Positions 16,572 through 19,468 of a stretch of 64,000 bases of DNA are shown in pieces. The position numbers were made by a program, and so were the translations under genes. This DNA is from an uncultured Chloroflexales bacterium (GTDB taxonomy: Bacteria; Chloroflexota; Chloroflexia; Chloroflexales; Chloroflexaceae): the NCBI GenBank assembly GCA_937918935.1, contig CAKZSI010000041.1, positions 62,001 through 126,000 of the forward strand, in the 5' to 3' direction. The notes beneath the pieces were generated by a model, which was not told the origin of the DNA, made no database searches, and worked only from the letters and a program-made list of their open reading frames with translations. Positions within the stretch are counted from its first letter, which is position 1. Each line of letters begins with the position of its first letter.

Positions 16572-16620
16572 TCGCAGGCCAGGGCACGGGGCAGCCAGGT
16601 TGCCCCGAAGGTTTTCACAG

Positions 16621-16659
16621 AGAAGGGTCCAGGAGGGTGCAGCCCTCCTGGACCCTTCT
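16621..16659. terminator. Perfect 17-bp bidirectional terminator hairpin
   Basis: Arms 16621-16637 and 16643-16659 are perfect complements with a TGCAG loop. It lies between the convergent membrane-protein gene and the end of the protease operon. No U-tract follows on either strand. The core GGAGGGTGCAGCCCTCC is shared with the dispersed hairpin family. Confidence 0.8.
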
Positions 16660-16664
16660 CTAGT

Positions 16665-16910
16665 TTACACGGATGGCGCGGCGCCGGCATCGGTAGCGCC
16701 AACAGCCTGGCCGTTGGAACTCACCACGCCGGCCTGGACGGCAAGACCCCCCGCTTCGGCGATGGCCGCCAGCAACGCGGCGGATGGGCCGCCACCATCG
16801 TTGGCCGGAAGTTGGACCGCGCCACGTTCCGCCAGACCGGCGCGGACCTCTTCGTGCTCGAGCGTTCGCACCCGCGCCGCCTGTTCGTCGATTTCGATGG
16901 TGATACGCAT
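16665..16910 (-). CDS. Small peptide/protein, last gene of the protease operon
   Basis: 81 residues. GGAGG lies 5 bases before the ATG at 16910 and decides the start over one 33 bases upstream. The N-terminal half is charged and likely structured ('MRITIEIDEQAARVRTLEHE'). The C-terminal half is made of Gly, Ala, Ser, Val and Asn and contains two related motifs, 'NDGGGPSA' and 'TDAGAAPSV', the second at the very C-terminus. No signal peptide and no cysteine. The layout (leader-like head, low-complexity tail, protease gene upstream) resembles a processed precursor peptide, but no modification enzyme is present. It could instead be a small regulatory partner. Family not recognised. Confidence 0.7.
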   Translation of the reverse strand: MRITIEIDEQAARVRTLEHEEVRAGLAERGAVQLPANDGGGPSAALLAAIAEAGGLAVQAGVVSSNGQAVGATDAGAAPSV

Positions 16911-16940
16911 TATCGCCTCCTGTGCGTCCTCCGGGAAAAG

Positions 16941-16965
16941 CAAGGCGAAACCTGGTTTCGCCTTG
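16941..16965. repeat. Perfect 25-bp palindrome, GAAACC-T-GGTTTC family
   Basis: Twelve-base arms around a central T, read identically on both strands. It lies between the 84-residue gene and the 81-residue gene inside the operon, just before the latter's RBS. In RNA it would form a hairpin that could separate expression of the two genes. Related copies: 7122, 7164, 31183, 37604, 41255. Confidence 0.8.
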
Positions 16966-16970
16966 TGCTA

Positions 16971-17225
16971 TCAGTTCATAATCGCGTAGCGCGCCTCGAT
17001 ATTGACCGGATTGGCGCTGACATTGCGGATACTGATCCAGTAGGTGATATGTGTTGGTGAGGCGCGCTCGACCTCTACGTCCCAGTCGATCTGAGGGCCG
17101 CCGGATTGTGGCGAGGTAGAGACAACGTTCCAGACGACGTGCCAGTTCGCGGGCCAGCTATGGGTAAACCAGCGCCGGGTCTGATTGGCCGGAACGCTTC
17201 CGGTGAATTGAACACCGATACGCAT
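16971..17225 (-). CDS. Stand-alone copy of the neighbouring subtilase's C-terminal domain
   Basis: 84 residues, starting with an AAGGAGACACGT ribosome binding site. It aligns along its whole length with residues 483-566 of the subtilase encoded 35 bases upstream, sharing 'VPANQT', 'RWFTHSWPA', 'GGPQI', 'VERAS', 'HITYWI' and 'PVNIEARYA' (about 70% identity by eye). It is a compact beta-type domain rich in aromatic residues, with no signal peptide. A tandem duplication of the 3' end of the protease gene is the simplest origin. It might compete with, bind or replace the protease's own tail. Family not recognised. Confidence 0.85.
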   Translation of the reverse strand: MRIGVQFTGSVPANQTRRWFTHSWPANWHVVWNVVSTSPQSGGPQIDWDVEVERASPTHITYWISIRNVSANPVNIEARYAIMN

Positions 17226-17260
17226 ACGTGTCTCCTTGACGCTAAGGTGCGAACCAGGGC

Positions 17261-18961
17261 TTACCAGCCAAGAACGGCGTAGCGAGCCTCGATATTGACC
17301 GGCACGTTCGTCAGGTTGGTAATCGCGATCCAGTAGGTAATGTGGCGGTCGGAGGCGCGCTCAACCTGCACGCGCCAGTGGATCTGCGGGCCGCCGGGGG
17401 TGACGCTGGTGGGCACGACCGTCCAGATCACGTGCCAGTGGGCCGGCCAGCTATGGGTGAACCAGCGGCTGGTCTGATTGGCCGGCACGACACCGGTGAA
17501 CTGCACGCCGATCCAGGTGCGGGTCGGCAGCACATAGTCAATCATCTGACGCATATTGGGCCGGTTGCCGATCCGCTGGGCGGCGGGGCGGCCCGGAGCG
17601 TCTTGCTGGGGTGAACCGGTGGTGCGCAGCACCTCGCGCGCCCGGGCCGGGCTCATCGGAATGCGTCCGGCGGCGCGGAGCACCCCCTGCACCCCGGCAA
17701 TGGCCCCGACGACGATCGGCGAGGCGCTCGATGTGCCGCTGAAGGTGTCGGTGTACCAGAGATCTTCGTTCGAGCCGCCCTGCAGATCGCCGTAGCCGGT
17801 GGTGGTTACCTCGCGCCCCCAACCCTGCGCGTCAACCAGTGCGCCGTAGTTTGAGAAGCCCAGACGCGAACGGTCGGGGCCGTGGTTCCGCCCGTGGGTG
17901 CCGGGGGGCGGCGCGCCGGCGCCGACCACGATCGCGCCCGAGTCGAGGGGAGCGCGGCGGTAGGGGTTGCGCCACCAGGAGGGGAAGGGGCCGAAGGGGG
18001 CGGGCGGGTTAGTGTTGTAGAGCGCATCATCGAGGTTCTCCTGGCCGTTCCCCGCGGCCTCGACAACGATGACGCCCTTGTTGACCGCGTAGCGAATCGC
18101 CTGGTAGTCATCAGGCCACCACTCGATGGCGACGTAGCCAGCCTGGTCAAGACGTGCGGCGAAGTTATGGCGCGGGCCGGCGCGGTGCAACTCGATCAGG
18201 ATCACGTCGCCGGGGTTGAGCAGATCGGCGGCCTGGCGGATCGCCCCGGCGCTGCCGACGCCGCCAAAGATCGAAATGGCGCGCACATTGGCATCGGGGC
18301 AGATCCCGGTAATGCCGAAGGTATTGCGGTCACCGCCGAATTCGCCGATGACCGCGGTGCCGTGATTGCGCCAGCCGAGGTCGCTTGAAGCGGCGCCGAA
18401 GACCATCCCGCCCTGATTCTGGACCAGATCCTCGTGCGTGAAGCGCCATGCGCCTTCGATATCGATGATGCGCACGCCGGCGCCGCTGCCGCCGGGCCGC
18501 GTCCAGGCAAAGCGCGCGTCAATGCCTTCGGGTGCGGCGTTGAGATAGCCCTGGCGGCTGGTAAAGTCCGGTGTGGCGGCCGGCTCTTCGGGCCGTGGCG
18601 CCATATCGTTGATACCGAGTTCGCCCCGCGGCAACTCCACCTCGGTCAGCACGGCAGGGCTGGCAGGCGGCTTTACATAGGCGGCTTCTACAGTGGGCAG
18701 TTCCTGCAGCCGCCGGGCCAGATCCTCGAGACGCTCATCCGGCGCATCAACGCGATAAAACGTAACCTCGGCAGGCAGGGCGCCCGCCGCCGCCCCGGCG
18801 CCGAGCGCCTCAGGGGGCGCTTCAGGGGCCGCAGCGAAGAGCCGGTGCATGGCGCCGCCAGCCTCCGACACGATCCGGGACAGATCAACGGGTGCGGCGC
18901 CAAGGACAGGGGCGCCCTCCTCGGCTCGCGTGATGACAATCAACTCGCGCTCCAGTTCCAT
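17261..18961 (-). CDS. Subtilisin-like (S8) serine protease without signal peptide
   Basis: 566 residues; AAGGAGGAG ribosome binding site. Order: an N-terminal prodomain-like region (1-100) ending 'RLQELPTVEAAYVKPP'; a linker; the S8 domain with Asp167 ('IIDIEG'), His200 ('NHGTAVIGE'), oxyanion Asn305 ('AAGNG') and Ser411 ('SGTSSASP'), so the full catalytic set is present; and a C-terminal domain (483-566). There is no signal peptide, so it is cytosolic or exported by an unseen route. Its prodomain is repeated in the upstream lipoprotein gene and its C-terminal domain in the downstream 84-residue gene. The four genes are spaced 31, 35 and 60 bases apart and each has a strong RBS. Confidence 0.88.
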   Translation of the reverse strand: MELERELIVITRAEEGAPVLGAAPVDLSRIVSEAGGAMHRLFAAAPEAPPEALGAGAAAGALPAEVTFYRVDAPDERLEDLARRLQELPTVEAAYVKPPASPAVLTEVELPRGELGINDMAPRPEEPAATPDFTSRQGYLNAAPEGIDARFAWTRPGGSGAGVRIIDIEGAWRFTHEDLVQNQGGMVFGAASSDLGWRNHGTAVIGEFGGDRNTFGITGICPDANVRAISIFGGVGSAGAIRQAADLLNPGDVILIELHRAGPRHNFAARLDQAGYVAIEWWPDDYQAIRYAVNKGVIVVEAAGNGQENLDDALYNTNPPAPFGPFPSWWRNPYRRAPLDSGAIVVGAGAPPPGTHGRNHGPDRSRLGFSNYGALVDAQGWGREVTTTGYGDLQGGSNEDLWYTDTFSGTSSASPIVVGAIAGVQGVLRAAGRIPMSPARAREVLRTTGSPQQDAPGRPAAQRIGNRPNMRQMIDYVLPTRTWIGVQFTGVVPANQTSRWFTHSWPAHWHVIWTVVPTSVTPGGPQIHWRVQVERASDRHITYWIAITNLTNVPVNIEARYAVLGW

Positions 18962-18992
18962 GGGCTCCTCCTTGAGGTATGCGCTGCCAACA

Positions 18993-19361
18993 TTACGACA
19001 GAGCGTCAGGGGGTTTCAGGTACGCTGACTCGACGCCCGGTGTCTGCTGCAGACGGGCCACCAGCGAGGCGGCCGCGTCGGCGGCGATGTCAGCCACAAA
19101 CGTTCGAGCCAGGACGGGATCAGACGCCCCGGGGTCCAGCGGGCGCAGATTGGGGGCCGCCTCCAGCACCGTTCGTGATGCCGCGGTGGGTGCGCTCTGA
19201 CCCTTCAGGGCCGCGGCCAGGCTTTCCTGGGCGATCACAATAACCTGCACGGTTTTCCCCTCGCCGGTACGGGTGGGCGTTGGCGCCGGGGTGGCGGTTG
19301 CACACGCCACGAGCATCGAGGCGAGGAGCAACCACGCGAAGATTGCCAGCGCTCGCCGCAT
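18993..19361 (-). CDS. Lipoprotein resembling the prodomain of the adjacent subtilase
   Basis: 122 residues with GGAGGAACACC before the ATG. Signal peptide 'MRRALAIFAWLLLASMLVAC' with lipobox LVAC; Cys20 would be lipidated. After a Thr/Pro-rich linker the mature part ends 'ARLQQTPGVESAYLKPPDAL', matching 'RRLQELPTVEAAYVKPPASP' at the end of the subtilase prodomain; the preceding segments also align loosely (VIVI, SRxVxEA). It is first in the operon behind a good promoter. It could be a membrane-tethered inhibitor or folding chaperone for the protease, as free I9-type prodomains can be; this is inference. Topology is a puzzle because the protease lacks a signal peptide. Confidence 0.8.
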   Translation of the reverse strand: MRRALAIFAWLLLASMLVACATATPAPTPTRTGEGKTVQVIVIAQESLAAALKGQSAPTAASRTVLEAAPNLRPLDPGASDPVLARTFVADIAADAAASLVARLQQTPGVESAYLKPPDALS

Positions 19362-19440
19362 GGTGTTCCTCCAGATGTTGGCGCAAGCGACCAGTTTTCG
19401 GAGGCGGATGACCTTTCAAGGAACGACATTGAACACTTCA

Positions 19441-19468
19441 AGTATAGCACCCACAGCAGATTTATCAA
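19441..19468 (-). promoter_or_regulatory. Promoter of the lipoprotein-subtilase operon
   Basis: On the - strand: -35 TTGATA (19463-19468), a 16-base spacer ending in TGC, and -10 TATACT (19441-19446), i.e. five of six consensus bases in each box plus an extended -10. The predicted start is near 19433, about 70 bases before the ATG at 19361. The local sequence is AT-rich. Confidence 0.7.

Follow-up and report, generated by a model that had tools for sequence, protein, structure and literature searches.

A subtilase operon with separately encoded propeptide-like and jelly-roll proteins in a Chloroflexales genome and its relatives across bacteria and archaea

A stretch of 64,000 nucleotides from an uncultured Chloroflexales bacterium (contig CAKZSI010000041.1, positions 62,001 to 126,000; hereafter the window) contains a four-gene operon built around a subtilase, in which both the prodomain and the C-terminal module of the enzyme have relatives encoded as separate neighbouring genes. 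We propose, with a probability of about 0.5, that the operon comprises a cytosolic subtilase, a propeptide-like inhibitor acting in trans, and a means of positioning the protease in which its jelly-roll module binds a protein carrying short motifs; the trans inhibition and the motif binding are the parts that we infer. Four intact open reading frames (ORFs) lie on the − strand from 19468 to 16665, just as a preceding sequence-only reading of this DNA had placed them, and all four genes are under purifying selection (dN/dS, the ratio of nonsynonymous to synonymous substitution rates, is 0.03-0.33 between three species). A single promoter-like site, TTGATA-16-TATACT with a TG before the second hexamer, lies upstream of all four (19441..19468, − strand, from a promoter scan); it has 10 of 12 matches, the region contains two such sites where shuffled sequence would give 0.3, and the same site was read directly upstream of the operon in two sister species (L015 and L016). 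Each of the four starts has a Shine-Dalgarno-like sequence upstream (read directly), in line with the strong ribosome-binding sites described earlier.

Gene 2 (17261..18961; − strand, as are all features below) encodes a protein of 566 amino acids (aa) that belongs to subtilase family S8, with a PF00082 match of 49 bits against a gathering score of 21.8. The Asp/His/Ser triad and oxyanion Asn that had been picked out by eye (D167, H200, N305 and S411) are all present and are invariant among relatives. The nearest named subtilase models by score are mycosin (TIGR03921) and the PatA/PatG maturation proteases, yet the scores fall far under the curated cut-offs (40.6 bits versus 278.75 for TIGR03921); a sister enzyme is similarly distant from its own nearest named subtilase model (28 bits versus 421). 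A cis prodomain was placed by alignment at approximately residues 1-99 (18665..18961), and because the model of a homologue (L053) aligns with pro-Tk-subtilisin from the prodomain through the catalytic domain (Z ~27), we assign this prodomain the I9-type, or subtilisin propeptide, fold.

The C-terminal module of the subtilase (residues 483-566; 17264..17515; alignment and structure comparison) is re-encoded by gene 3 (16971..17225), whose 84-aa product is 71-73% identical to it by alignment, close to the 70% first estimated by eye; these are the only two homologous places in the genome. Taking each locus once, 26 loci encode the module, and a free copy lies directly downstream of the subtilase in 22 of the 26, with none found anywhere in the genomes of L044, L045, L053 and L062 by whole-genome search. 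Across phyla the free copies fall largely into groups of their own, separate from the fused ones (4 label changes versus 16 when shuffled), which argues that the duplication is old and rules out a recent local duplicate as the origin of gene 3; monophyly of the free copies is not rejected (approximately unbiased test, p 0.505). By these sequence comparisons the partnership with the 84-aa protein is ancient and has been conserved. AlphaFold predicts it with high confidence as a six-stranded beta-sandwich, and the best solved match to the model is the C-terminal jelly-roll of Tk-SP (Z 7.8, root-mean-square deviation 2.4-2.5, 76 residues); GOLD domains follow closely (Z 7.3-7.7), so the jelly-roll assignment rests partly on context, and we set aside the GOLD-domain, lectin and mitogen matches as generic beta-sandwich similarity. 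No copy of the jelly-roll was found in viral contigs or phage records.

Gene 1 (18993..19361) encodes a stand-alone propeptide-like (I9-type) protein of 122 aa with the lipoprotein signal MRRALAIFAWLLLASMLVAC and a mature domain at approximately 18996-19271. Its local alignment with the subtilase prodomain scores 84 (shuffled mean 35.8, standard deviation 6.3), a value reached by none of 5000 shuffles, which contradicts a chance match; together with the identity between gene 3 and the C-terminal module, this upholds the domain re-use noticed in the sequence-only reading. Profile comparison relates the lipoprotein to cis-prodomains (E 1.2e-7) and, over its full mature length, to stand-alone prodomain-like proteins of other phyla (E 6e-19); free propeptide-like proteins are themselves homologous to cis-prodomains (hhalign E 2e-16). 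Many loci proved to have a separate gene of ~80-95 residues directly upstream when scanned with a profile of the subtilases' own prodomains; seeding a second profile with those free proteins widened the set to further loci. By this profile, seeded in part with hits that were later counted, 18 of 25 jelly-roll loci have the stand-alone gene ahead of the subtilase gene, as do many sister loci; the Flavobacteriia genes were recovered though they lay outside the second-profile seed. A conserved Lys...Pro tail ends 31 of 33 free propeptide-like proteins, compared with 35 of 5937 other ORFs, and I9 inhibitors work via their C-terminal tail. Curated I9 models match neither the lipoprotein, nor the subtilase with its cis-prodomain, nor 14 free relatives, although the fold of the cis-prodomain is I9-like.

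An inhibitor or chaperone acting in trans, as proposed earlier, is still the best reading of gene 1, and its role as a propeptide-like inhibitor is the most likely part of our explanation, with odds somewhat better than even. The further suggestion that this inhibitor is tethered does not generalise, as a clear N-terminal signal or membrane segment is confined to the genus of the window (a lipobox) and one cyanobacterium (L043), with a few ambiguous cases. The free I9-type protein is thus predicted from sequence to be cytosolic almost everywhere else, and the lipoprotein form to be a lineage-specific local change.

The gene set is not a Chloroflexota trait but has a patchy, wide distribution. 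It occurs in three of the five species of the window's genus, all five of which have the flanking threonine-dehydratase-like gene and 123-aa gene. In the two species without the set, whose genomes are 97% and 100% complete, the site is empty: the flanking genes are 59 and 640 bases apart, versus 3060 with the cassette, with essentially no cassette DNA between them, and the set was therefore gained or lost as one unit. The match of G002 to the 123-aa side starts at window position 16689, just within the 3′ end of the 81-aa gene. An 18-bp perfect inverted repeat just past gene 4 (16620..16660) was read directly as a terminator-like stem without a T run and was not reported by the terminator scan. 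The sister species G004 (L015, 2494 to 2896) has ~400 bases between the subtilase and the 84-aa gene, compared with ~40 in the window.

Of 400 Chloroflexota genomes, just one beyond the genus gave a strong match to the jelly-roll module; it has module, free copy and motif protein in the same order. A subtilase encoded on the Haloferax mediterranei megaplasmid is 58% identical over its full length (tblastn) and is followed by an 84-aa homologue and then by a frame starting MRIIIEID with repeated DAG motifs, a gene annotated for its last 50 residues only. One scan of genome contigs yielded 80 loci in bacteria and archaea, including Cyanobacteria, Pseudomonadota, Bacteroidota, Actinomycetota, Acidobacteriota, Armatimonadota, Nitrospirota, Planctomycetota, Methanotrichaceae, Haloferax and others. 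Gene order is kept in many phyla, the opposite of a gene set with no co-occurrence in any relative; no convincing neighbour common to the operons across phyla was found beyond the cassette itself.

Gene 4 (16665..16910) encodes an 81-aa protein starting MRITIEID. Described at first as a Gly/Ala-rich peptide, the ORF is present, and its label is corrected from one of composition to that of a carrier of two motif copies conserved across phyla: DGGGPSAALLAAI at residues 38-50 (16761..16799) and DAGAAPSV at the C-terminus, residues 74-81 (16668..16691), both from motif analysis. It belongs to a family of DAG-motif proteins that usually start M[KR]IxIE and carry D-[A/G]-G-x-[A/P]-[P/S] motifs, conserved repeats separated by linkers that vary. 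A motif protein is the next gene in 26 of 26 jelly-roll loci and in 0 of 57 sister loci without the module, and among the loci surveyed it was never seen without the jelly-roll. It is retained in L044, L045, L053 and L062, where the free jelly-roll is missing genome-wide, which ties it to the subtilase's own module. From this co-occurrence we suggest, at a little under even odds, that the jelly-roll copies recognise the motif protein. The haloarchaeal motif proteins (L035:8023-8661, L054:7927-8523, L079:7927-8571) are ~200 aa long with an extra conserved C-terminal domain (MDYEAIVSGTVEEVKDRV...LIEAERAG..RNTLIEWLE), probably helical; the one member tested has no Pfam match.

A substrate role had been suggested for the 81-aa protein; nothing shows it, and a binding ligand or scaffold would account for the repeated short motif equally well or better. 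In its fuller form the proposal is that the motif protein is a substrate or precursor cut at or between its repeats into signal or antagonist peptides, with the free jelly-roll as a delivery or chaperone subunit. We consider this unlikely. The protein is indeed small, disordered, repeat-bearing and last in the operon, the linkers between its motifs vary, and some sister subtilases adjoin an ATP-grasp ribosomal-peptide maturase (TIGR04187, E 4e-36), but the repeats are the conserved part and any would-be core is what varies, the jelly-roll operons include no modifying enzyme, transporter or signal peptide, and other lineages re-encode a free module beside different low-complexity proteins, which fits recognition by the module.

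Those lineages are found among the sister subtilases without the jelly-roll, which carry other C-terminal modules. Nitrospira, a Hyphomicrobiales genome and Methanosarcina have an unrelated module of ~75 residues with a separate downstream copy of 43-67% identity (L073:3486-3734, L083:7683-7916, L104:7696-7932), and a Pro-rich repeat protein follows the free copy in L083 and L104, the two loci with enough downstream sequence. In Streptomyces (L077:7675-8325, L086:7672-8445) the downstream gene joins a copy of the module (30-35% identity) to a low-complexity stretch rich in Q, G and P. That the same arrangement recurs with non-homologous modules argues that module, free copy and short-motif protein work together. 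We put at even odds the broader proposal of a modular class of intracellular subtilases in bacteria and archaea that has not been described before, with a free propeptide inhibitor, a recognition module swapped between lineages, a copy of that module and a motif-repeat ligand; the window would have the jelly-roll/DAG version, and a second version would combine the unrelated module with repeats rich in Pro. In a further branch the subtilase has a Lys/Glu-rich coiled-coil-like tail (L058:9484-11309, L065:7888-9566, L064, L071, L072, L074) and is followed by a ~200-275-aa protein without a family match and an MvdD/GRASP_SAV_5884-like ATP-grasp maturase; these loci are possibly of graspetide type.

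The recurrence also bears on whether the 84-aa protein and the lipoprotein are merely leftover domain duplications without a joint function beside the protease. That the window's module and free copy are highly identical would suit such an origin, as would the absence of the free copy from four genomes and of the upstream gene from several. It is strongly disfavoured by conservation, and we regard it as very improbable: gene order is the same in many phyla, free and fused copies form separate old groups, the genes are under purifying selection, and module re-encoding recurs with unrelated modules.

No N-terminal hydrophobic segment was found in 21 of 21 jelly-roll subtilases examined, and the same scan found no export signal in the 84-aa and motif proteins. 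A conflict role was weighed here, in which the operon is an effector and immunity unit, the protease being set free or switched on when cells are in conflict with one another or with invaders, the propeptide-like protein conferring immunity, and its lipoprotein form guarding the envelope. Patchy horizontal spread with plasmid carriage, gain or loss as one cassette, the lipoprotein signal in the window's genus with the membrane segment in L043, and other proteases or a caspase near some loci would all accord with it. We nonetheless think it improbable, somewhat more so than the substrate proposal, as secretion signals and toxin-delivery genes are lacking, there is no link to extracellular contractile injection systems (eCIS), no PADLOC match and no phage or viral copy, and the jelly-roll pair and motif protein are left unexplained. 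The eCIS link had come into question because L047 and L059 have sheath-like and eCIS-like neighbours; it was rejected, since eCIS_core (PF13699) is absent from the window's genome and is not enriched in operon genomes; assignment as a defence system was likewise dropped for want of a PADLOC match.

Several neighbours were recorded in individual lineages. In L047 (2769-4952) a single frame ~1 kb from the subtilase operon combines a phage tail-sheath-like protein with an AAA ATPase domain, and in L049 (4677-5828) a caspase-domain protein with zinc ribbons lies near the Methanotrichaceae operon. Only the Flavobacteriia (L060:8492-13565, and the same region in L061, L066, L067 and L068) have a neighbour in common, a downstream protein of ~1250-1400 aa with a weak AAA match, and four of these five loci also have an M10-like metallopeptidase.

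In the reading that we prefer, the locus would be an operon complete in itself that has spread horizontally and that encodes a regulated intracellular subtilase. This would be made as a zymogen with its own propeptide, and the gene 1 product would apply the same kind of propeptide fold in trans to inhibit, or to re-fold and inhibit, the mature enzyme, by analogy with POIA1, PBI2 and SUB1-ProM. The subtilase jelly-roll and its 84-aa copy may recognise the D-[A/G]-G-x-[A/P]-[P/S]-x-x-[L/W]-[L/V] motif of the last protein; this multivalent motif protein could cluster or position the protease, and the free jelly-roll would compete for or cap the motif sites. In the lineage of the window, the lipoprotein inhibitor may guard the cell surface against released enzyme. 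The physiological role would be regulated proteolysis in stress or conflict, which is a guess.

A number of observations weigh against this reading. In the window's organism the subtilase lacks a signal and the lipoprotein has one, so that the two are predicted from their sequences to be in different compartments, the protease inside the cell and the lipoprotein outside. The upstream propeptide-like gene is absent in Haloferax and several actinobacterial loci, and the profile used to count it was, as mentioned, seeded with part of its own hits. The frequency of the D-[A/G]-G-x-[A/P]-[P/S] motif (61 copies versus 2.0 in shuffles; at least two copies in 21 of 26 motif proteins versus 12 of 6982 other ORFs) speaks for the reading, but this count describes the family and is no independent test, because the pattern was defined on the same proteins. 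The jelly-roll/motif-protein pair shows six independent changes on the best subtilase tree, two of them on well supported branches, and with so few changes the case for recognition between the two is suggestive. AlphaFold single-chain read-through models leave the motif protein disordered and undocked, both for the 84-aa and 81-aa proteins (predicted local distance difference test, pLDDT, mostly <70) and for the L053 subtilase with its motif protein (tail mostly <31).

The enzyme-level parts all have known relatives, and the assembled architecture appears new: searches of Pfam, NCBIfam, PADLOC and the literature, the coverage of the last being incomplete, turned up no matching system, and no Pfam or NCBIfam model matches the operon's three small proteins. 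Stand-alone I9 propeptide-like inhibitors include POIA1, yeast PBI2, Arabidopsis SPI-1, TgMIC5 and Plasmodium SUB1-ProM, whose gene adjoins subtilase genes (PMC6993865). The gene 1 product resembles these in being a small separate protein similar to a subtilase propeptide, but they are eukaryotic and described singly, whereas gene 1 is prokaryotic, immediately precedes the gene of its presumed target, a subtilase with a propeptide of its own, and is part of a larger conserved operon. Subtilases with a C-terminal jelly-roll are already known from Tk-SP (PMC3599501), which shares the order of catalytic domain and jelly-roll and provides the best structural match to the 84-aa module; with Z <8 and low identity, common ancestry of the jelly-rolls is not shown, and unlike in Tk-SP the jelly-roll here is also conserved as a protein by itself and the enzyme lacks an export signal.

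A close parallel for the duplicated module is the effector-associated domain (EAD) coupling of nucleoside triphosphate-dependent conflict systems, in which a domain fused to the core protein has a copy in an adjacent gene, predicted to couple the proteins, and copies in adjacent genes usually resemble one another more than any others (PMC7159879). The operon likewise has a small non-enzymatic domain that the neighbouring gene encodes a second time (in those 22 of 26 loci) but differs in that it has no NTPase among its genes, its free copy stands alone rather than fused to an effector, its domain is an all-beta jelly-roll, and the pair is ancient across phyla. Graspetide loci of the microviridin type have ATP-grasp maturases (PMC8939145), and an MvdD/GRASP_SAV_5884-like gene lies beside the Lys/Glu-tailed sister subtilases listed above; unlike in graspetide loci, no such gene belongs to any jelly-roll operon or is among the four genes of the operon in the window.

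The operon adds three unnamed protein families—the free propeptide-like protein, the stand-alone jelly-roll and the DAG-motif protein. Accounts of stand-alone subtilase propeptides have come mostly from eukaryotes. Tight control is needed for a protease that carries no export signal, and here the presumed inhibitor, the enzyme, the recognition module and the presumed ligand share one operon in culturable Haloferax, Zobellia, Thiomonas and Nonomuraea, so that trans-inhibition by the propeptide-like protein and recognition by the re-encoded module can be tested directly. That unrelated modules are re-encoded in the same way points to a general design rule for regulated proteases.

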